A program made the position numbers and the translations under genes. DNA of 64,000 nucleotides from Pirellula staleyi DSM 6068. Its GTDB lineage: Bacteria > Planctomycetota > Planctomycetia > Pirellulales > Pirellulaceae. The stretch lies in contig CAMCMB010000016.1 in the NCBI GenBank assembly GCA_945875845.1, positions 1-64,000 on the forward strand, in the 5' to 3' direction. Of the stretch, positions 5,625 through 16,611 are shown piece after piece. The notes beneath the pieces were generated by a model. That model was not told where the DNA came from and ran no database searches. It worked only from the letters and a program-made list of their open reading frames with translations. Positions within the stretch are counted from its first letter, which is position 1. Each line of letters starts with the position of its first letter.

Positions 5625-5677
5625 AGTGGATTAGCCCAGGGATCGTTCCCTTCACGCTAGGGTGAAGGTCCACTACG
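5625..5677. terminator. possible shared hairpin between convergent genes
   Basis: Between the convergent trpS and aldehyde dehydrogenase genes lie nested inverted repeats. The inner one is CCTTCAC/GTGAAGG around 5650-5668, and outer arms AGTGGA/TCCACT are near 5626 and 5671. There is no T-run on either side, so terminator function is only suggested by position and symmetry. Confidence 0.35.
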
Positions 5678-7148
5678 CGTCGAGGCTGATCGTTACCGTC
5701 TTGGATTCGGTATACGCTTTCAGCCCCTCCTCGCCTAGTTCACGACCGTGGCCGCTCATCTTGAATCCACCAAAAGGTGCCGCTGCGTCGAAGACGTCAT
5801 AGCAATTGACCCAAACCGTGCCTGCTCGAACTCGTCTGGCAAAATCATGCGCTCGGGTGATATCGCGAGTCCATACGGCTGCAGCAAGTCCGTAGAATGT
5901 GTTATTGGCTCGCTGAATCAAATCATCCCAATCCTCAAAAGTGAGCACCGACATCACAGGACCAAAAATCTCGTCTTGAGCGATGGCCATCGAGTCGGTC
6001 ACACCATCGAAGACGGTCGGTTGAACGAAATAGCCGGTATCACCGAATCGTTCGCCACCTGAGACGCACTTGGCTCCATCGATGTTTCCAAGTTCGATGT
6101 ATTTCATGATCTTGTCAAATTGAGCCCTATCGATTTGTGGACCTTGTTCGGTATCCATGGAGAACGGATTGCCCAGCTTTCGGTTCTTGGTCAGCTTGGT
6201 CAGTTTGTCCATGAATTCATCGTGAGCGCGCTTCTCGACAAATACACGGCTACCCGCACAGCAGCATTGCCCCTGATTGAGGAACAAACCGACGTAGGCA
6301 CCCTGCGCCGCTTTCTCGAGATTGGCATCGGCTAAAACAACGTTAGGGCTCTTGCCTCCCAGCTCAAACGTAAGCCGTTTGAGCGACTCGGCTGCGTCGC
6401 GCATGATGATTTGGGCGGTTCGATGTTCACCGGTAAACGCGATTTTGTCGACGCCCGGGTGTTTTACCAACGAACCGCCCGCAGTGGGCCCATAGCCCGG
6501 CACAACATTGACGACGCCGTCCGGAACGCCCGCGTCTTTGGCCAATTGGGCCAGGCGTAAACAACTAAGTGGCGTTTGTTCGGCTGGTTTCATGACGATG
6601 GTACAGCCAGAGGCCAATGCGGGCCCCCACTTCCACGCTGTCATCAGCATTGGAAAATTCCAAGGGATGATTTGCCCCGCGACTCCAACCGCTTCGCGGC
6701 GCGTGTAAGTAAAATAATTGCCGCGAATCGGAATCGTCGAGCCATGGATCTTGTCCGCGTATCCTGCATAGTATCTCAAACAATCCAATACGAGCGGTAG
6801 GTCCGCGAAGCGTGATTCACGAATGGGCTTACCGTTATCGAGCGTTTCTAAAGCTGCCAAGTCATCGATTTCGTCCTCGATCAAGTCCGCCAAACGGAAC
6901 ATTATTTTGCCACGCTCACGGGCATCCATCTTGCTCCAAGGGCCATTGTCGAACGCATGGCGAGCTGCTTTGACGGCCGCGTCGATATCGGCTTTGTCAC
7001 CTTCGGCAACTTCGCAAATCACCTCTTCGGTAGCTGGGTTAATCGTTTCGAAGGTTCTGCCAGACATGGCCGGGCGCCATTGTCCGTCGATAAAGCATTC
7101 CGTATGTTGGATTTTCGGTTGGGCGATGGTTGCAACAGCAGTAGACAT
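5673..7148 (-). CDS. NAD-dependent aldehyde dehydrogenase
   Basis: It oxidises an aldehyde to the acid with NAD(P)+. It has 491 residues, the usual length for the ALDH superfamily. Visible are the cofactor/substrate segment [22 protein letters not shown] (split by the pocket, near 160-181), the general base Glu262 in [10 protein letters not shown], and catalytic Cys296 in [11 protein letters not shown]. The three-cysteine signature and length resemble the ALDH1/2 and phenylacetaldehyde/retinal-type group. The position usually occupied by the FTGST loop reads FTGEHRT, an unusual Glu-His in the cofactor loop. It is monocistronic and ends opposite trpS. The exact substrate cannot be inferred. 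Confidence 0.93.
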
Positions 7149-7219: not shown

Positions 7220-9199
7220 CTAAGGGCGTTCGGATTTGCTTTTCAATCTTGGCCTCGCAGTAAGCATTCGCTCCCAACCATCAGGACTCATCTTCGTTCC
7301 CTTGAGATGGATGGATTCGAGCTGCGAAATCGATAGCAAGACATCGATGCTTGCGTCGGAAATGTCGCAGTTCGTCAACCATAACGTTTTGAGCGACTTG
7401 TTACCACGAAGCATTGCGATGCCGGTGTCGGTCACTTTGCAATTGGACAGATCCAGTTCCTGCAGGTCTTTCATTCGAGAAAGGGTTTCTAGCGAACGGT
7501 CGGTTACTTTCGTTGACTCAAGCACCAAGCGACGGACATTCCATGGAGGTTCGACTGGATCGGTATTGCCTACAAACAATTCGTCATCGACTTGGGTGAA
7601 CGAAAGTTCCAGCCATGTCGACGAACGAAAACCGATTGGCCATTCGAGCAATTGTTTCGTTTTTACATCACAACGTGTCAGAACGGCTTCCTTGCGGAGC
7701 GCAAAGAAAGGTCGGCTTGCGACTTCCGTTGGCCCCAACACCAAGAAGCGATCATAGGCCGTTCGCAATGGTTCGTCCGCGTTCCACTCGCCCAGCAGCT
7801 CAGGCTCTTCGTTTCCAGCGTAGACGCTTTGGATGTAATCGATGAGTGTTCGTTGCTTTTCCGGAGTACCGTCCATCCATAAATGGGCAAGTCCGCAGGC
7901 TTGGCTGTACCAAACGGCAATGTCTTTACCTCGCCGAAACCGGGTTCCCGTTGCGGATCGAAATTCGTCCCATTGGCTCCAAAACTGATCGTTGAGCCGT
8001 CGATATCTGCCCGCTTGAAATCTCGGCGCATCCCATCCACCAACATCCGCGAGGATGCCTCCGCCACACGCTCGTGTCGACATGGACTCCATATACAATG
8101 CGATTCCCTCAATGATCCAGAAGCCAGGACCATTATCCGTATCGAGTGCAACATTCTGCGAATTTGCCTCGAAGAAAAATTGGTGGACCAATTCGTGGAC
8201 AACGGTCTCCTGCGTTTTCTGGCCGTCCCAATAAAACAGCGCCATTTTTCGATTTGGGTCATAGAAGCCAGTCGAGATCCCAATATTGCGTTCGGTGGAC
8301 TTGAGCGCCTTCTCGTAAGCAGATTTATCGCGAAAAAGAGTCACGGAAAACTTCGAGCCCTGTGACCTGGCGTATTCGGGTGCGGAGGTCTGCTGATCTG
8401 CCCAAACCGAAAAGAAAATCTGCTTCCAGATCGCGAACACTTGTTCACAAAGCTCCGCTACCTCTTCGGTCGGCCTGATACCTGCTTGCGAAACGATTTC
8501 AAAATTAGGTGTTATCACCACAGAGTAGGAGCCTGCCGGCCATCGTGTTTTGGGATGATTGACGAACGCCTTCGGTGTCAACTTCATGGTACCGACCGCA
8601 GTCGCTTCGGTCCACGTGGGCTTGGCGGGTTCTTTGTGGCCTGCGGTAACAGGCACAGTCGAACGCAGGCCCGCCGCTTGCCACCTCAGTCGATATCCGG
8701 ACTCCAAGTCTTGATTCGACTCCTTGGTGATGGCAAGTTGGTCCAGCGTTTGGGCCAACTTTTCGAGCGATTGCCGAAACGCTTCCAGCGAATCTTTGCT
8801 TTCAAATAACTTTGCCATTTGCTCGTAGTTGACTCGCGCTGCGTTGGGTTGGCGAGGCAAGACAAAGCGATGACGATGTTGTGGATTGAGTTCGCATAGA
8901 AGCGCGAAAGCATCTGCTATTTCGGAATTCTTCGAAAGCGGCTTCGCGCATTCTTTGGCTAACGCGAGTGCGGACCGAACGGACTCGTTCGAATCGAACT
9001 CTTCACGAGACTGTGCGTTGACGGAAAAATATGCCAAGCATGGGATAATCAGAATTAACAAAACAAGCCTGCCGCGGTGTGCAAAACCCCTCACCTCCAG
9101 CCCCTCTCCTCTAAAAGGGGCGAGGGGAGCAATCTCAAAAGATGAGGCGTTAGTGGGTGCCACACGTACCGAAACGGCCTCGAGTCGCTGTCTATTCAC
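7220..9199 (-). CDS. secreted HExxH metallopeptidase-like protein with leucine-rich repeats
   Basis: The longest reading gives 659 residues. A hydrophobic signal segment (LVLLILIIPCLAYFSVNAQ) lies at about 45-63. The central part carries VVHELVHQFFFEA, a zinc-peptidase HExxH helix, followed some 25 residues later by WIIEGIALYMESM, where the Glu resembles the gluzincin third ligand. The last 130 residues are leucine-rich repeats (LQELDLSNCKVTD, LKTLWLTNCDISD, LESIHLKGTKMS). The start is ambiguous. A GTG at 9199 overlaps the upstream stop by eight bases, but the first 40 residues are encoded by an interspersed repeat. A second GTG near 9094, behind GGAG, would give a normal signal peptide. It is the last gene of a four-gene operon. 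Substrate and actual peptidase activity are unknown. Confidence 0.8.
   Translation of the reverse strand: MNRQRLEAVSVRVAPTNASSFEIAPLAPFRGEGLEVRGFAHRGRLVLLILIIPCLAYFSVNAQSREEFDSNESVRSALALAKECAKPLSKNSEIADAFALLCELNPQHRHRFVLPRQPNAARVNYEQMAKLFESKDSLEAFRQSLEKLAQTLDQLAITKESNQDLESGYRLRWQAAGLRSTVPVTAGHKEPAKPTWTEATAVGTMKLTPKAFVNHPKTRWPAGSYSVVITPNFEIVSQAGIRPTEEVAELCEQVFAIWKQIFFSVWADQQTSAPEYARSQGSKFSVTLFRDKSAYEKALKSTERNIGISTGFYDPNRKMALFYWDGQKTQETVVHELVHQFFFEANSQNVALDTDNGPGFWIIEGIALYMESMSTRACGGGILADVGGWDAPRFQAGRYRRLNDQFWSQWDEFRSATGTRFRRGKDIAVWYSQACGLAHLWMDGTPEKQRTLIDYIQSVYAGNEEPELLGEWNADEPLRTAYDRFLVLGPTEVASRPFFALRKEAVLTRCDVKTKQLLEWPIGFRSSTWLELSFTQVDDELFVGNTDPVEPPWNVRRLVLESTKVTDRSLETLSRMKDLQELDLSNCKVTDTGIAMLRGNKSLKTLWLTNCDISDASIDVLLSISQLESIHLKGTKMSPDGWERMLTARPRLKSKSERP
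9066..9180. repeat. interspersed repeat (CCTCACCTCC...GAGGGG type) at a gene junction
   Basis: The plus strand carries CCCCTCACCTCCAGCCCC, then CTCTCCTCTAAAAGG, then GGCGAGGGGAGC. On the minus strand it would read as the peptide PLAPFRGEGLEVRG, a string I recall from spuriously translated intergenic repeats in several bacterial genomes. Here it lies inside the possible 5' end of the metallopeptidase-like gene and supplies a GGAG and a GTG that could serve as ribosome site and start. Confidence 0.55.
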
Positions 9200-11852
9200 G
9201 CGTTTTCTCCGATGCGCTTACTGATTCCGGCGAGTTGTTTGCTGGGGCTGCCATGGGAGTTGGCACTGGAACCGGCACTTTCCAGCATACTACTTCATTG
9301 TCCACAGCGATAACCATTCGCAAATGGTCGCCATCCGGGAATATCGCGGCACTTAAGATCGGTTTCCCGAGAGACATTTGATCCGCATACCCTTGGCCAC
9401 TTGTTTGCAAATGCAGTACGCGTCGCGGCGCCGTCGAAAGCCAGTAGAAGCTTCCGTTGGCAAGGATCGTCGAGGAGAGGTTTCTGCATTGGTCAGCTCG
9501 TACCGACAGGGGGTGCGAGAGCATCGGTTCAAATTTGCTGTTTTGCAAAATCGAACCGGTTTCGCCGCTGGGCAATTGAGCCATGCCCAATACGAGTGTC
9601 CTCTCACCACTCCTCCCCCAGGTCCAAGCACCTAACTCGGGAGCGAACGGGAGCTTCTTTATGGCGGTTGTCTCTGCGCGTTCGGTGGACGAAGCGACCT
9701 CGTCCGACGGCAACCCCTCGATTTCGGTAACCTGACGATCGAAGTCGACAACGTTCCAGGCAATGCATTCACCTCGATCGTTGAGCGATGGGATGATCGC
9801 AGCAACATTGACTGCAGATCCCTTAAACGGCTTGGACTGTTCCGGATCCAGGACATGCAGTTTGGATGCGTCGGTCGCAATGCTCAGACTTGGTTTGTTT
9901 CCCTGAACGGTCCAAACGAAAGCGATGGGTGATTCGTTTTGTGCAAGCGGAAACTCGGTGGCCTCGACCGGAACTGTTTTGGCAATGTCAGATAAGTTCG
10001 TTGGCATTTCTACCAGCCAATATCGCGGCAAGCCTTCGGGTACGATGGCGACCCAACGATGGGCCCAAGGATCGGGCAGAATGTGGATTCGCTTTGCATT
10101 ATCTGCCTTTTCGATCGGAATGGATGCGATGATTCGTTTGTTCCCCGCACTATCCACGATGCTGAGATTTCCCAATTCGTCTAAGACTGTCATCAGTCGA
10201 GCGAGCGGGGCGCTGGTTGCAAACAGATCGGGCGTAACTAGGGTGCGGCCCTTCTGTGGATAGAATTGTTCACCGCCGGCCGCAATGATCTTGACATCAA
10301 AGCTCGTATGCCAGGCTTCCGTTATCGGATGAAACATGAAGGGAAACGAGGAGATCGGTCCGATTTCGTCCGCTTGTGATTTTTCGACAATCACGCGTTG
10401 TAGACGAGAAGCGAATCTCGCTTCGTCGTCGAGACTGCTTTGCCGACTTCGCATGGCTCGATTGACACCTTTTTGAAGCTCGTCGACGATGCCGGGCAAA
10501 TTGTCCAGATAGCCGAACTCGTCAACATGTTGCACCATGGCTTGTTTGTCTAACACCACGAGCGCGGGCTGATTCTTGATGTTAAATAGGCTCTGCGTCA
10601 GACCCTTGGTATCGATCGCGAGCGGCAGGTTGCAATTCCAGCGTTTAAAGGCCTCTTTCATTTTGGCGGCCGGCGCCGTGGAAACCATGATGATTTCAGT
10701 CGATCCGCTTAGGGACAAACGATCGAGTTCACGCGAGACATTCATCGCATATTTAACGAAAGACTCGCTAACGACCTCACTCACTTTGTCGTCACCAACC
10801 CAGCACAGCACCGAAATTGTTTTGGTGCCGCGCTGCGCGGAATCCAACAAGAGGTTTCCATCCGCATCGCGGAGATCGAATGGCTTGAGTGTTTCGCCGA
10901 CGAGTGGAGGCAAGTCGCGTGGCGGTGCTTCGATAAAACGCCTTACTGCAATTTCATTGGATTGTTTCGGGATTTGCCATTCGGACCAGTCGACGATTGC
11001 ATCCGCCTTCACCCCGACGAGCTCGATCGCGAGTTCTGATTTTGACTTATCAAGGTCGGCTGGTAAACCCGGCGGGACTTGATCAAAGAGTTCGATCGGC
11101 ATTTCGTACTTGCGCAGCAACTTTTCCTTTTGATCGATCCACAAAGTCCGTTTCAATCCCATGGAGGTGATTTGGACGCGATCGCACTGGACACCATCGA
11201 ACGTTTCAGGGGTCAGCAGTGTGAGTTTGGTTTTTTCATTGAACAAGTAGGCAAGGGGTTTATCATCAAATAGCAGTTGAATTTGGATCGGAGTACCCGA
11301 AACGACTCGATCCAAGGACGGGCCGAGGTTGTCGACGAGCAACCACTTCAAATCGATCGATGCGGGGCTTGGCCGCACCAAGCGTTGATTGCCAAAGGGC
11401 TTGCTGATCTTATTTCCGACCACGGCTTCCCAACTTGAGTTGGTCGAGAGGGCTTGCAAGTCGAGGGCCCGGATTCCCAATCGATTGGGGGCTTCGTAGG
11501 CGATCCGCATCAAATCCGTATCGACGATTGGATTGTCTTTGGTTGGCAGTTTGACAATCAACGAACCGCGGTCTTCGTAGCTTCTGAGGGTCTTGTATTT
11601 AGCAAAGCAAGCGTCGAGTACTTCTCGTGCCAAAACCGATCGAGCGATTGACTCTGGCGATTCCGGAGGCTCAACCGCTGCTGCTGTTTTTTCGCCTGCC
11701 TGGGAACTCGCGAGGCTCGTGGCGTTCTTGGAGTCTTTGGTTGAACTTGCTCTGTCGCAGCCTGAACCGAAAAGACAAGGTACGAAGAGAAAAATCGCGG
11801 TGAAGGTTCTGGCTTGTTGCATAGGTCGACGTGTGGCGTTTTTGCTGTCCAT
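9192..11852 (-). CDS. lipoprotein with LolA-like and thioredoxin-like domains
   Basis: The protein has 886 residues. A lipobox-like end of the signal peptide (FLFVPCLFGSGC, Cys near 33) indicates lipidation and export. Residues about 70-270 (LDACFAKYKTLRSYEDRGS ... KRTLWIDQKEKLLRKYEMP) resemble the LolA/LppX-like fold of planctomycete outer-membrane lipoprotein-sorting-like proteins. Residues about 320-460 follow an AhpC/TSA-TlpA thioredoxin pattern (FDLRDADGNLLLDS ... PALVVLDKQAMVQHVDEFG), but the active-site CxxC is absent (ISVLCWVGDDKV). The C-terminal 400 residues may form a beta-propeller-like tail. It begins six bases after the kinase-like gene and overlaps the metallopeptidase-like gene. 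Redox activity is unlikely; a binding or scaffold role is inferred. Confidence 0.75.
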   Translation of the reverse strand: MDSKNATRRPMQQARTFTAIFLFVPCLFGSGCDRASSTKDSKNATSLASSQAGEKTAAAVEPPESPESIARSVLAREVLDACFAKYKTLRSYEDRGSLIVKLPTKDNPIVDTDLMRIAYEAPNRLGIRALDLQALSTNSSWEAVVGNKISKPFGNQRLVRPSPASIDLKWLLVDNLGPSLDRVVSGTPIQIQLLFDDKPLAYLFNEKTKLTLLTPETFDGVQCDRVQITSMGLKRTLWIDQKEKLLRKYEMPIELFDQVPPGLPADLDKSKSELAIELVGVKADAIVDWSEWQIPKQSNEIAVRRFIEAPPRDLPPLVGETLKPFDLRDADGNLLLDSAQRGTKTISVLCWVGDDKVSEVVSESFVKYAMNVSRELDRLSLSGSTEIIMVSTAPAAKMKEAFKRWNCNLPLAIDTKGLTQSLFNIKNQPALVVLDKQAMVQHVDEFGYLDNLPGIVDELQKGVNRAMRSRQSSLDDEARFASRLQRVIVEKSQADEIGPISSFPFMFHPITEAWHTSFDVKIIAAGGEQFYPQKGRTLVTPDLFATSAPLARLMTVLDELGNLSIVDSAGNKRIIASIPIEKADNAKRIHILPDPWAHRWVAIVPEGLPRYWLVEMPTNLSDIAKTVPVEATEFPLAQNESPIAFVWTVQGNKPSLSIATDASKLHVLDPEQSKPFKGSAVNVAAIIPSLNDRGECIAWNVVDFDRQVTEIEGLPSDEVASSTERAETTAIKKLPFAPELGAWTWGRSGERTLVLGMAQLPSGETGSILQNSKFEPMLSHPLSVRADQCRNLSSTILANGSFYWLSTAPRRVLHLQTSGQGYADQMSLGKPILSAAIFPDGDHLRMVIAVDNEVVCWKVPVPVPTPMAAPANNSPESVSASEKTRE

Positions 11853-11858
11853 GAGTTG

Positions 11859-13466
11859 CTAATTCCTAAGTTTACTCAGCTTGGATTGCGCTTGTTCAAC
11901 GATTGGGAGCATCTCCTTGTTTCCATTGTAAAGGTTGACGATGCTCTCCCATATTTGCTTTGCACCGATGGCATCGGCGTTACTGTACATGTTGTCGGCT
12001 TGCACCAATTTCTCCCGCAAGAACCTTCGAAGTTCTTCGATACTCGGGGGCTTCGACTGGATTTTGGCGATTTGGCGACGGGCTAAATTGACGTAGGCTC
12101 GTTCCTGTTCTTCGTCTTTTAGCAAATGGACGATCCCTTTATACTGTTCGAGTGCGGTAACGCGGTCCCCGAACAATTCGTACCGGCTCGCTTCGGAATA
12201 TTTGCGCTCTCCTTCGCTCGAAGGTTCCCTTCCGAAACGCTGATTGCTCTGAATTCGCGACTCGGCATTTTCCATCTCGATGAGGTCCAGTTGCTCCTTT
12301 GCCCAAAGAGAACTTTCCCCATCCGGGAATCGTTCCACTAGATGATACAGGTACTTGTCGCGAGCTTCGTTGTGCGAGCCAAGATCCTCTCGTGCCATCA
12401 GGACTTCGGCTCTTGCTCGCAGCGTTTTCTCTCCCGGGGGCCAAACCAAGTAGGTGATGAGACAGAGGGTAGCGACCAGCAAACCGAGCAAGACCAAGGG
12501 GCGTTCGAGAAGGCCTGGTGCTTCTTGTTCGTCGCCGTCAAGAATGCGTCGCTTCTTCTTTTTCTTTTTGTGCCCCAACGCCTTCGCGGCTTCCGCTCGA
12601 TCGGTATTCATCTGCAGCGGACTGAAACCAGACAAGGCATGTTCGGCCACACCCATACCAGTGTTGGCACGCCTTTGAGCCTCCTGCAACGCCAAGCATG
12701 TCGCGGTAGCGGAGTAGGGTCGCTTCAACGGATCCTTGTTCATCAGTTGTTCGACGATGGAACTGAGCCAAACGGGGCAATCAAAGACGAGGGTTGCAAC
12801 AGGGGCAACGAAATTCTCGCGGATCGCTTGCTTCATCAACGACGGGTTGGGTGCGACGAATGGCGATACGCCCGTAAGGGCATGATAGAGAACGGCGCCT
12901 ACCGAATACAAATCCGACGCCGCATCGATCTTTGGTTTTTCGGAGAAGGTTTCCGGTGCTGAGTAGGCCAACTGCAGGACCGAGAGAGGAACAGGCGAGC
13001 CGGGCCCCCGCCGAAAGTCGCAAATCTTTACCTTGGTTCCATCTTTGGAGAGAATGACCTTATCGAGGCGGATTCGTCCATGGATCCAGCCCGCGTCATG
13101 CGCCACTTGCAATGCCTCACACAGTTGCAAACCAAAGTCAAGCACGGACTCCCACGGCAATCGCTCTCTTTTCTTTAAGGCGCTTTCAAGCGAATCACCG
13201 TCCACCAATTCATAAACCAAGTAAGCATCTTTCGCATCGAATCCGCCCCCATAACATCGTACAATGCCGGGATGTCGCAGGGCTTTGAGGCTCTCCAGTT
13301 GTTCGGCGAACTCTTGCTTCGCCTCAGGCGTCATCCCCATCGGCACCGAGAAAACTCGCACAGCCACTTGGGCTTTCTGTTGCATGTGCAGCGCGCGATA
13401 GACATTCGAGCCGCGATCACCCAATGGAGACTCTAGCGCTAAGGGACCGATACGGGAGCGAGTCAC
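11859..13466 (-). CDS. membrane-anchored Hanks-type kinase homologue, probable pseudokinase
   Basis: Residues 1-265 fit the serine/threonine kinase fold: glycine-rich strand, helix C, HPGIVRCYGGG, YLVYELVDG hinge and SAPE at 169-172. Key catalytic residues are replaced. The ATP-binding Lys is Arg37 (VAVRV), the HRD Asp is Arg131 (HGR at 129-131), the following Lys is Arg133, and the metal-binding Asn is Lys136. The DFG motif is DFR (150-152), retaining only Asp. A lysine-rich stretch (300-307), a transmembrane helix (about 324-342) and a 190-residue extracytoplasmic coiled or TPR-like region with repeated tyrosine/alanine helices follow. Phosphotransfer therefore seems lost, and ATP binding or pure scaffolding is likely. 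It starts four bases after the nucleoside hydrolase gene. Confidence 0.88.
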   Translation of the reverse strand: MTRSRIGPLALESPLGDRGSNVYRALHMQQKAQVAVRVFSVPMGMTPEAKQEFAEQLESLKALRHPGIVRCYGGGFDAKDAYLVYELVDGDSLESALKKRERLPWESVLDFGLQLCEALQVAHDAGWIHGRIRLDKVILSKDGTKVKICDFRRGPGSPVPLSVLQLAYSAPETFSEKPKIDAASDLYSVGAVLYHALTGVSPFVAPNPSLMKQAIRENFVAPVATLVFDCPVWLSSIVEQLMNKDPLKRPYSATATCLALQEAQRRANTGMGVAEHALSGFSPLQMNTDRAEAAKALGHKKKKKKRRILDGDEQEAPGLLERPLVLLGLLVATLCLITYLVWPPGEKTLRARAEVLMAREDLGSHNEARDKYLYHLVERFPDGESSLWAKEQLDLIEMENAESRIQSNQRFGREPSSEGERKYSEASRYELFGDRVTALEQYKGIVHLLKDEEQERAYVNLARRQIAKIQSKPPSIEELRRFLREKLVQADNMYSNADAIGAKQIWESIVNLYNGNKEMLPIVEQAQSKLSKLRN

Positions 13467-13470
13467 AGCA

Positions 13471-14430
13471 TCAGAGCCCTTCCGTGCATTGGCCCGCGAA
13501 TTTCAAGCCGTTGTAGACACAGTCGCGTACCGCATCGACGTCGACTCGCGTGACAATTTCCAAATCGCGACGACTCGGGGCATACGGACGTCTATCCACG
13601 ATCGTGGCCCCTCGAGTCAGTACTCCCAGTTCTTCGATGTCTACCGAAAATTGATCCGATTCAAACATGGATGATTCGAGCAAGTACACGACACCGATTA
13701 CCGCTTGGAGAATAATCGATTCTTGGGCACGATGCTGTCGAAGCGATCGAAAGAAATGGGGTAGCATCGAATGAAGCAGAGCGCCAGCACGCGTGTGTTT
13801 CGCAGGCAGGATTCCCAAAAGATTCAAATCGAACGTCACTTGATTGGTGACTTCCAGAGGGATCAAGGATTTGGTAGTGGCGGATCGAAATACGGCGGAT
13901 GCACTTGCAGGATCGAAGTGCATGTTGAACTCTGCCGCAGCCGTCACGTCTCCAATGCAGTCCGTGGATCCACCGACCATGATTATTTTATCAACCGCTT
14001 CGATGATGCTCGGATCTCGCTGAAAAGCTCTTGCAATTCCTGTTAAGGGGCCAAGGCATAGAATAGTGACATCGCCTGGATCGGCACGAAGTCGATCCGC
14101 AATCAGCTTTTCGCTCGTCATGATGTGTGTGCGATTGACCAGATCTAAACCCAAGTTCCCAAGACCGTCTTCTCCATGCAAAAATTGCCCATCGGAAACC
14201 GGTGCGTCATCGGGATCCGAACCAGCGCCGACACGCGGATGGCGTGGCGGATCCAGTTTTTCGAGAAGACCTAAAATGTTTTGCGTGCTGCGCTGGGATT
14301 CGACCGTACCAGAGCATGAGGTCACCGCCACCACGTCCAGCCTCGGGTCGAACAAAGCCATCACCAGGGCAACCGCGTCGTCAATCCCTGGGTCGCAATC
14401 GATTATGACTTTTCGTACCATACTAATCAA
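13471..14430 (-). CDS. inosine/uridine-preferring nucleoside hydrolase
   Basis: The enzyme cleaves the N-glycosidic bond of ribonucleosides, giving ribose and base. The 319-residue protein opens with the calcium-binding DxDxGxDDA signature (VIIDCDPGIDDAVAL). The family segments HGEDGLGNLGL and TILCLGPLTGIARAF, the MVGGS turn and EFNMHFDPASA are also visible. It is the first gene of a minus-strand operon whose following genes encode a kinase-like protein, a lipoprotein and a metallopeptidase-like protein; this partnership is unexpected for a salvage enzyme and may be mere cotranscription. The stated start has two nearby methionines (residues 1 and 4). Confidence 0.92.
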   Translation of the reverse strand: MISMVRKVIIDCDPGIDDAVALVMALFDPRLDVVAVTSCSGTVESQRSTQNILGLLEKLDPPRHPRVGAGSDPDDAPVSDGQFLHGEDGLGNLGLDLVNRTHIMTSEKLIADRLRADPGDVTILCLGPLTGIARAFQRDPSIIEAVDKIIMVGGSTDCIGDVTAAAEFNMHFDPASASAVFRSATTKSLIPLEVTNQVTFDLNLLGILPAKHTRAGALLHSMLPHFFRSLRQHRAQESIILQAVIGVVYLLESSMFESDQFSVDIEELGVLTRGATIVDRRPYAPSRRDLEIVTRVDVDAVRDCVYNGLKFAGQCTEGL

Positions 14431-15666: not shown

Positions 15667-16611
15667 CTAAGCGCTCAGCTTGGCAAGCCGGGGCTTTTGT
15701 CGGGGTGTTTCCTCTCGATCTTGCATGTTGCTCTCGTTTTGGAGAGATTTGCGTTGCGATATTTCTTGGAACGCTAGATCTCGTCCACGGTTGCTAGAAA
15801 TTGCAACCAACGGCGTTCGCTCGCTGGCCGCGCGAACTTGTTCCGGTTGGATCAAGGGTTGGTAGGAAGCGTCGATCGGTGTCACGACGAATACAATCCC
15901 AAGTCCAAAGACAAGGCCCGCAATCGAACAGAGTGCAACGATCGTTGTCTGACCAGGACCGATAGGCCGATCACTCACGATCGGAGCATCAAGCCTAGTG
16001 AAGGGATGTCTGGCAATCGACGATTCGCGAGCCGCCTGTATCTCAGCCAATTCCGTTTCTTCCCCATCCAGAATCACATCATCGGCCCTCGCCTGTCGGG
16101 CGTTTTGAAGCCAAGATTCTAATGCATCGCAAAGGGCCTTGCTCAATTTCAGCGTTTCGTCCTGCGTGTTTGCAATGACATCAAGGTAAAGGACGGAGGT
16201 CGCGCCGAATTCGGTCCCTCTGGGAGCGTGAACTACGATACGGGTTTTCGCGAAATCTTCAATCACTTCTTTCGAAGGAAAAGCTTTGTAGCCCCAACGG
16301 CTATCGGGGCGACCAACCGCCATCAAGGCATCTCGGACCACAGGTTGGCTTTTGGCTATTTCAAGAATCGTCGCTTGAGCGGCTTTCCTTTCGGCTTGGG
16401 TTTGGAAACGACCGAGCCTCCTGATTGCCCCCGCGGCTTCTTCGCCAACCAAAATGGCTTGCGATGCCACGAATTTGTCTTGCTTTAAGAAAAGCACATA
16501 AACGACGCCCAACCCACCAAACAGAAATGTCGTGAGGATCCAGAGTGGCGACCAGACCAAGAGGCCTCGTACAAGACTTCGGAGAGCTGGATTGGCATTC
16601 GATGCACTCAT
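15667..16611 (-). CDS. Wzz-like chain-length/polysaccharide co-polymerase family membrane protein
   Basis: The 314-residue protein has two transmembrane helices (about 18-40, PLWILTTFLFGGLGVVYVLF, and about 221-243, IVALCSIAGLVFGLGIVFVV) bracketing a periplasmic region, the plan of Wzz/polysaccharide co-polymerases. The segment before the second helix has the proline-rich VSDRPIGPG pattern common in that family. The periplasmic part is short, the usual long coiled coils are reduced, and there is no tyrosine-kinase domain. Orientation is convergent with trpD. No polysaccharide gene cluster adjoins it, so the role in exopolysaccharide length control is a family inference. Confidence 0.65.
   Translation of the reverse strand: MSASNANPALRSLVRGLLVWSPLWILTTFLFGGLGVVYVLFLKQDKFVASQAILVGEEAAGAIRRLGRFQTQAERKAAQATILEIAKSQPVVRDALMAVGRPDSRWGYKAFPSKEVIEDFAKTRIVVHAPRGTEFGATSVLYLDVIANTQDETLKLSKALCDALESWLQNARQARADDVILDGEETELAEIQAARESSIARHPFTRLDAPIVSDRPIGPGQTTIVALCSIAGLVFGLGIVFVVTPIDASYQPLIQPEQVRAASERTPLVAISSNRGRDLAFQEISQRKSLQNESNMQDREETPRQKPRLAKLSA

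Follow-up and report, generated by a model that had tools for sequence, protein, structure and literature searches.

A putative envelope operon of a Pirellula-type planctomycete combining a membrane pseudokinase, a lipoprotein without redox cysteines and a probable metallopeptidase

Why should a planctomycete keep a nucleoside hydrolase, a kinase-like protein without its catalytic residues, a thioredoxin-like lipoprotein and a HExxH protein one behind the other? The question was raised by a 64,000-nucleotide stretch of DNA, called the window below (positions 1 to 64,000 of contig CAMCMB010000016.1, listed under Pirellula staleyi DSM 6068). It belongs to a 7.0 Mb planctomycete genome whose closest named relatives are Pirellula. 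Four consecutive open reading frames (ORFs) were found on its minus strand, in the order nucleoside hydrolase (NH), membrane pseudokinase (PK), lipoprotein (LP) and HExxH-leucine-rich repeat (LRR) protein (MP) (Table 1). The preliminary description of this DNA had proposed a four-gene operon, and the ORF list of the window bore this out. NH and PK were separated by 4 bases and PK and LP by 6 bases, and MP started with a GTG that overlapped the stop of LP by 8 bases. This overlap (GTGnnTAR) was present in 6/6 four-gene operons located on a single contig (window, L170, L171, L172, L184 and L185; L and G numbers are our handles for loci and genomes). Because it recurred in all six, the four-gene arrangement is more than chance. 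We favored, with confidence somewhat short of even, the reading that the operon encodes parts of the cell envelope, mostly enzymes that kept the fold and lost the chemistry, and that PK, LP and MP would form an assembly.

PK matched the Pkinase family (PF00069, E 7.4e-27), and PknB of M. tuberculosis was its best fold match. The AlphaFold2 model had a mean predicted local distance difference test (pLDDT) score of 85.2, and the C-terminal part was built as helical repeats. This part was predicted to be extracytoplasmic, with a single helix crossing the membrane. In the window, the beta-3 Lys was replaced by Arg (VAVR), HRD read HGR and DFG read DFR; the DFG Asp was kept, and the Lys, the HRD Asp and the DFG Gly were lost. 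The combination that marks an active Ser/Thr kinase (beta-3 Lys, HRD Asp and DFG Asp) was absent. Among 59 aligned rows from named PK loci and the window, 2/59 were K/D/D, and 57/59 corresponded to a Ser/Thr pseudokinase, defined by at least one lost motif whose loss is conserved in a clade. As a separate observation, 3/5 of the best PK paralogues in the window's own genome had no HRD Asp in the alignment (L002, L004 and L006, with R/R/A, -/A/D and -/S/D), and this genome may hold several pseudokinases.

The loss of catalysis was traced across the order. We searched 196 genomes of the order separately with PK, LP and MP. Full-length PK orthologues were found in 55 genomes (54 fetched and the window; G134 was borderline, E 8e-43). 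Family names were inferred from named loci, with f1 corresponding to Pirellulaceae and f7 to a Lacipirellulaceae-type family. The complete Lys, Asp and Asp set was kept in 0/29 f1 rows and 0/18 f7 rows, one of the latter lacking its N terminus. Eight f1 rows kept the HRD Asp, without the Lys and the DFG Asp. The remaining 8 rows of the order had the set in 7/8, including the borderline G134, and the eighth had HRN. Outside the order, PK gave a match at E <= 1e-40 in 79 genomes (97/158 searched, 18 of the 97 being within the order), and 20/20 orthologues inspected there were canonical (VAIK/HRD/DFG), glycine loop included. As the PK tree below showed, the ancestor of PK was an active kinase of the receptor Ser/Thr type.

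A tree of 50 PK rows (27 live and 23 dead) was built with the catalytic columns removed. The live and dead states needed one change on this tree, and the two families' 22 dead rows formed a clade with support of 100/97. The simplest account would be one loss of catalysis in the common ancestor of Pirellulaceae and Lacipirellulaceae. Against a single loss, the HRN row joined the dead clade at only 84/71, and two losses are possible. The motif states differed by clade (R/R/D, K/A/D, K/V/D, K/R/G, Q/R/N and C/D/S). If catalysis no longer mattered, the motifs would be expected to drift differently in each clade, as was seen after the loss. The protein itself was not decayed. The ratio of nonsynonymous to synonymous substitution (dN/dS) in three close pairs was 0.135, 0.162 and 0.032 for the dead kinase domain, similar to the values for the extracytoplasmic domain (0.092, 0.112 and 0.045), and dead PK is under purifying selection. 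Full length and the C-terminal domain were retained in the dead orthologues. PK was kept in 29/35 f1 genomes and 18/35 f7 genomes, where absence was scored if the best match covered only a domain. The dead-enzyme reading of the preliminary description is right as judged from the sequences, and the loss appears older than the window alone could show.

LP showed a second loss. Its lipobox-like Cys stood in GSGC in the window and in WLGC, LQGC, MFGC, LCGC, WIGC, LIGC and LPGC in relatives. The window LP matched thioredoxin families weakly (AhpC-TSA, E 0.0019, below the cut-off). Ten LP homologues were scanned at E <= 0.01, and AhpC-TSA was found in 9, DUF2092 in 6 and a propeller-type family in 5; the domain order along the chain was constant among them, and L014 matched nothing. 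The AlphaFold2 model had a pLDDT of 65 overall, higher in the thioredoxin and propeller parts and of low confidence in the N-terminal third. The top Foldseek matches included 7djk (a 'quenching protein', which we take to be SOQ1), 6gc1 and WD40 propellers, the WD40 propellers ranking highest after 7djk. The best sequence match in the PDB was ResA (E 0.033). No CxxC was present at the thioredoxin position in 10/10 aligned LP sequences, which set LP apart from TlpA/ResA-type thioredoxin oxidoreductases, whose CxxC stands where helix 1 begins. The preliminary description had called LP thioredoxin-like without CxxC, and this was confirmed beyond the window. In a set made up of the window, 4 operon members and the 29 best-matching relatives for which loci were available, CxxC was kept in 0/16 Pirellulaceae rows vs 17/18 rows outside, with 2 changes on the tree. 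The rows outside were planctomycete redoxins with DUF2092, AhpC-TSA and a propeller, homologous to LP and with the same domain order. Both f7 homologues in the set kept CxxC, though PK is dead in f7, and the two losses therefore probably fell at different times. The dN/dS of the dead thioredoxin domain was 0.087, 0.107 and 0.056 in three pairs. This redox-dead domain is conserved under purifying selection.

MP appeared to be the live member. It carried HELVH and WIIEGIALYMES, and HExxH with a downstream Glu, the gluzincin-type pattern, was present in 30/30 rows (the window and the 29 best relatives). A short C-terminal LRR was found (LRR_4, E 3e-8). The preliminary description had suggested a possibly live HExxH-LRR peptidase; these features agree with it, and MP is probably a live exported metallopeptidase. 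HExxH and the downstream Glu are shared with DUF1570 and related peptidases, but the match to DUF1570 reached 18.1 bits, below the 22-bit cut-off. MP had a match in 35/35 f1 genomes, and the LRR was reached in 34/35. Outside f1, the best MP matches stopped before the LRR among the matches listed. A PDB sequence search with MP gave LRR proteins and no peptidase among the best 60 of 114 matches. An interspersed palindromic repeat with 41 genome matches at E <= 0.01, the MP copy included, was present in MP of the window, L170 and L171 and not in MP of L172, L184 and L185, as judged from the alignment and junctions. We considered whether the 8-base overlap was a gene-calling artefact of a repeat-derived N terminus. 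This was ruled out, since the repeat-free L172, L184 and L185 share the overlap.

NH matched the inosine-uridine nucleoside hydrolase family (PF01156, E 1.8e-65, 222 bits vs a cut-off of 34.2). Its N terminus reads MVRKVIIDCDPGIDDA, and it has DCDPGIDDA, the usual active-site motif of nucleoside hydrolases. NH is probably an ordinary, catalytically intact enzyme. Its true start is possibly at 14421 and not at the TTG at 14430, as ORFs in two more distant relatives (L110 and L111) begin at the codon matching the ATG at 14421 (MVRKVIID). NH adjoined PK in 16/16 genomes of the clade (window, L170-L180, L184, L185, L208 and L222). Most likely, it was a metabolic gene with which the transcription unit began, and it would stand outside the proposed assembly.

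We then asked how far the gene order is conserved. Among the fetched loci of the order, only those from the other two members of the window's genus had NH next to PK. From these two genus members the operon could have seemed unique to the window's genome; this was rejected, as six further genomes carried the full unit. The wider search covered 79 named PK loci, and 18 genomes were checked for the operon (the window and 17 reached via loci). NH-PK-LP-MP was present in 7/18 (window, L170, L171, L172, L184, L185 and G204). In G204 the operon was split over two contigs, L178 with NH and most of PK, and the other with the end of PK, LP and MP. NH-PK-LP with MP elsewhere was found in 4/18 (L174, L175, L176 and L180), and NH-PK plus a separate LP-MP pair in 1/18 (L177/G203). 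NH-PK stood alone in 3/18 (L179, L208 and L222), where LP and MP were apart. In L173 (1/18) PK was not followed by LP, and the assembly was too fragmented to place LP and MP. In L181 and L182 of the next genus (2/18), NH was not beside PK and no LP was detected. The NH/PK gap was 4 bases in 6/10 relatives (L170, L171, L172, L174, L175 and L184) and 1, 1, 3 and 13 bases in L176, L177, L180 and L185, with ends placed by hand. As read from the junctions, LP and MP seemed to overlap by 1 base in G204 and to be 7 bases apart in G203.

On the PK tree, the gene orders sorted by clade: NH-PK marked a clade of three rows (100/100), NH-PK-LP one of four rows (100/100) and the full unit one of nine rows (95/95); within the last, the L173/L177 pair has PK apart from LP. 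The fork joining the three clades is open (87/80); by parsimony, the operon probably grew stepwise from NH-PK to NH-PK-LP and NH-PK-LP-MP, followed by one split. It persisted even as identity dropped to 48% in LP and to 50% in MP.

Several results weighed against the proposed assembly. LP and MP stood beside PK in none of the fetched loci of the order. In the closed genomes, the three genes were far apart: PK, LP and MP were at 7.21, 3.44 and 6.73 Mb in G164, and at 5.43, 4.72 and 0.99 Mb in G078. For this reason, a family-wide PK-LP-MP linkage fails. LP was missed by tblastn in 20/35 family genomes, and 15/29 family genomes with PK had no LP match. Unless LP escaped detection through divergence, PK must therefore function without it in many species. 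Counted by eye in the 35 genomes, 14 had both genes, 1 had LP only, 15 had PK only and 5 had neither; Fisher's test, which ignored relatedness, gave p 0.21, and the co-occurrence was not significant. MP and LP also had other recurring neighbors, which are candidate partners of each. A creatininase-family gene followed MP in 14/27 other Pirellulaceae loci, and a xylose-isomerase-like TIM barrel gene preceded it in 9 of these 27 (L169 and L284-L301; one representative of each neighbor was run against Pfam). A lactate-racemase-like (Lar_N) gene was divergent beside LP in 6/11 family loci (L031, L034, L073, L076, L083 and L084). A Lar_N gene also followed MP in 4 loci of g7/g8.

The preliminary description had proposed to ask whether PK, LP and MP are always adjacent, and had held that independent homologues with canonical catalytic residues and random neighbors would make the operon a chance arrangement. 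Constant adjacency was not seen: outside the genus, the Pirellulaceae loci examined had the three genes apart, with other neighbors, and by this test the family-wide linkage fails. The link was rescued in part, because the operon is conserved within the genus down to the LP and MP identities given above and was seemingly built in steps. The surface sensing or scaffold role suggested there is plausible.

For the proposed assembly, the following arrangement is suggested. The dead kinase domain would be kept in the cytoplasm for protein binding or as an allosteric module, and one membrane helix would connect it to the helical-repeat domain in the periplasm. LP would be periplasmic. Because its thioredoxin-like domain has no redox cysteines, its most likely role is to bind a partner or substrate, with no disulfide exchange. 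Translation of MP may be coupled to that of LP through the observed overlap. The periplasmic domain of PK would dock LP and, via or together with LP, position MP. The dead kinase domain might then report to, or hold, cytoplasmic partners, as EssB/YukC does, an analogy and not a membership. The analysis showed the domain content, the catalytic losses and their conservation, the selection and the gene orders of today; the orientation of PK, the PK-LP-MP contact, the binding by the kinase domain and by LP and the cleavage by MP are predictions.

A serious rival is that the operon is made of bystanders. In one genus, rearrangements would have brought first LP and later MP in behind NH-PK, with no shared function, and each protein would keep its own old job with other partners. 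We regarded this as quite possible, if on the doubtful side. It would account for the absence of PK, LP and MP together from every locus examined outside the genus, for the other recurring neighbors of each, for the unclear LP/PK co-occurrence and for the separation of NH-PK from LP-MP in G203. However, LP and MP both joined one and the same unit, which survived to 48-50% identity with the same overlap geometry. They are also still paired in G203 after their separation from NH-PK, and we counted this for the assembly.

It is unlikely, in our view, that PK is no pure scaffold and binds nucleotide or has other chemistry, such as that of a non-canonical kinase, AMPylation or a nucleotide-gated switch. 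The DFG Asp was kept in 46/59 aligned rows (25 K/x/D, 20 R/R/D and 1 R/K/D). The x of the 25 rows was mostly Ala or Val, with two K/D/D and one K/N/D. DYD pseudokinases with the same Lys to Arg change were modelled with ATP in the text of a 2025 review of bacterial pseudokinases (PMC12599244). However, the variation of the motif states from clade to clade speaks against a single new active site shared by all, and the glycine loop of PK is degraded.

Other PK loci pointed to lipid genes (L130-L160, L217 and L230-L246; Pfam was run on one representative of each neighbor). In f7, FabA-like and acyl-carrier genes lay downstream of PK in 15/18 loci, mostly with a second FabA-like gene and a ketosynthase. 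In g2/g3 of f1, divergent SIS-CBS and HAD genes, which looked KdsD/KdsC-like by eye, stood with an LptA/LptD_N protein in 12/12 loci. In g8, a metallophosphoesterase gene lay downstream in 4/4 loci and DUF3419 and methyltransferase genes in 3/4; all three were beside PK in Rhodopirellula baltica and Stieleria tagensis. We treat these neighborhoods as a lead, without a null model. It seems quite improbable that PK serves outer-membrane lipid synthesis or transport, with the Pirellula operon as a side branch, since each of the three contexts may be one event inherited within its clade and tblastn found no such genes near PK in 20 live loci outside the order, in 7 live loci within it or in the Pirellula genus.

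The envelope assembly was finally compared with known systems. PK shares the kinase fold, one membrane helix and an extracytoplasmic part with PknB/PknA-type receptor kinases. PknB has PASTA repeats, whereas PK has C-terminal helical repeats and has lost the triad; the live PK orthologues inspected keep VAIK/HRD/DFG. EssB/YukC is described as a membrane pseudokinase that scaffolds the type VII secretion machine (PMC12599244). It shares with PK a cytoplasmic dead kinase domain and a membrane helix, and non-catalytic scaffolding is its proposed mode in that text. However, the YukC/EssB family gave no match to PK at E <= 1 (four Pfam hits), and the origin of PK lies in a live, PknB-like orthologue of planctomycetes. 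The same review names the bacterial pseudokinase families ActPs1-3, GLW, CP1, DYD and DLHK, which share with PK conserved Ser/Thr kinase relatives and lost motifs; where its text allows comparison, their motifs and host groups differ from those of PK (PMC12599244). GLW proteins are described there with GLW for HRD and LLLL/W at beta-3, whereas PK has HGR and VAVR. CP1 and DLHK are described without a transmembrane region, whereas a helix is predicted in PK. DYD proteins have DYD and a beta-3 Arg; PK has the Arg, but DFR and HGR (PMC12599244). The string 'planctomycet' does not occur in the main text of this review. In the library searched, we found no paper on pseudokinases of this planctomycete group; the larger kinase classification cited by PMC12599244 lay outside the search.

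LP resembled two entries of the PDB in part. NHLRC2 is described with a Trx-like domain, a following beta-propeller and a CCINC motif (PMC6107167). The order of a Trx-like domain and then a beta-propeller is shared by 6gc1 (NHLRC2) and 7djk with the LP model. However, LP has no CxxC at the place of the CC(I/V)NC motif of NHLRC2/SOQ1 and, unlike NHLRC2 and SOQ1, is a lipoprotein with an extra DUF2092-like domain. The overall TM-score to 7djk and 6gc1 was 0.18, with a root-mean-square deviation of about 25; the domains match and their arrangement does not. For MP, the difference from DUF1570 proteins also lies in the fused LRR; among the best matches listed, those of f1 alone extended over it.

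The surroundings of the operon gave several further observations. An aldehyde dehydrogenase gene lies 71 bases downstream of MP on the same strand (Table 1). It was also downstream in L171, L172 (about 1 kb off) and G204, and not within about 2.2 kb in L170, L184 and L185; it may be co-transcribed with the operon in some species. A gene for a Wzz-domain protein is near the operon, beyond a Glycos_transf_3 (TrpD-like) gene. A scan for promoter-like sites (4 vs 4.1 in shuffles, standard deviation 2.1) and terminator-like sites (13 vs 9.7, standard deviation 3.3) was uninformative.

Table 1. Coordinates of the operon genes, their domains and nearby features in the window (aa, amino acids)
Feature	Position	Strand	Description
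NH	14430-13471	minus	319 aa; nucleoside hydrolase, first operon gene
PK	13466-11859	minus	535 aa; membrane pseudokinase
PK, dead kinase domain	aa 14-265		followed by a linker
PK, hydrophobic helix	~aa 323-341		predicted transmembrane helix
PK, C-terminal domain	aa 346-534		helical repeats
LP	11852-9192	minus	886 aa; lipoprotein
LP, N terminus			signal peptide and lipobox-like Cys
LP, DUF2092-like domain	~aa 65-310		
LP, thioredoxin-like domain	~aa 311-465		
LP, beta-propeller	~aa 505-862		
MP	9199-7220	minus	659 aa; HExxH-LRR protein
Interspersed palindromic repeat	9070-9150	minus	in-frame insertion at the 5' end of the MP coding sequence
Aldehyde dehydrogenase gene	5673-7148	minus	downstream of MP
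Wzz-domain protein gene	15667-16611	minus	chain length determinant

A wider reading may be drawn from these results, although we consider it rather unlikely as a whole. A receptor kinase would have been converted once into a non-catalytic envelope organizer, which was then repeatedly recruited to envelope modules. If this were true, it would have been recruited beside lipid A/KDO (3-deoxy-D-manno-oct-2-ulosonic acid)-type and lipopolysaccharide-transport genes, and beside fatty-acid and betaine-lipid-type genes. In Pirellula, PK would form the core of a periplasmic complex, together with the peptidase and the redox-dead lipoprotein with its thioredoxin and propeller domains. The dead enzymes would then be functional components of a system for envelope homeostasis in which a live peptidase is still present. 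Apart from that wider reading, the same full-length receptor kinase occurs live in one group of families and, after one change on the tree, dead in two others, which forms a clean natural series. Cultured strains with the dead form include Rhodopirellula baltica, Rubripirellula obstinata, Stieleria tagensis and Bythopirellula polymerisocia (names from record titles). With live and dead orthologues of one kinase at hand, the role that a bacterial pseudokinase takes after the loss of phosphorylation becomes directly testable by comparison.

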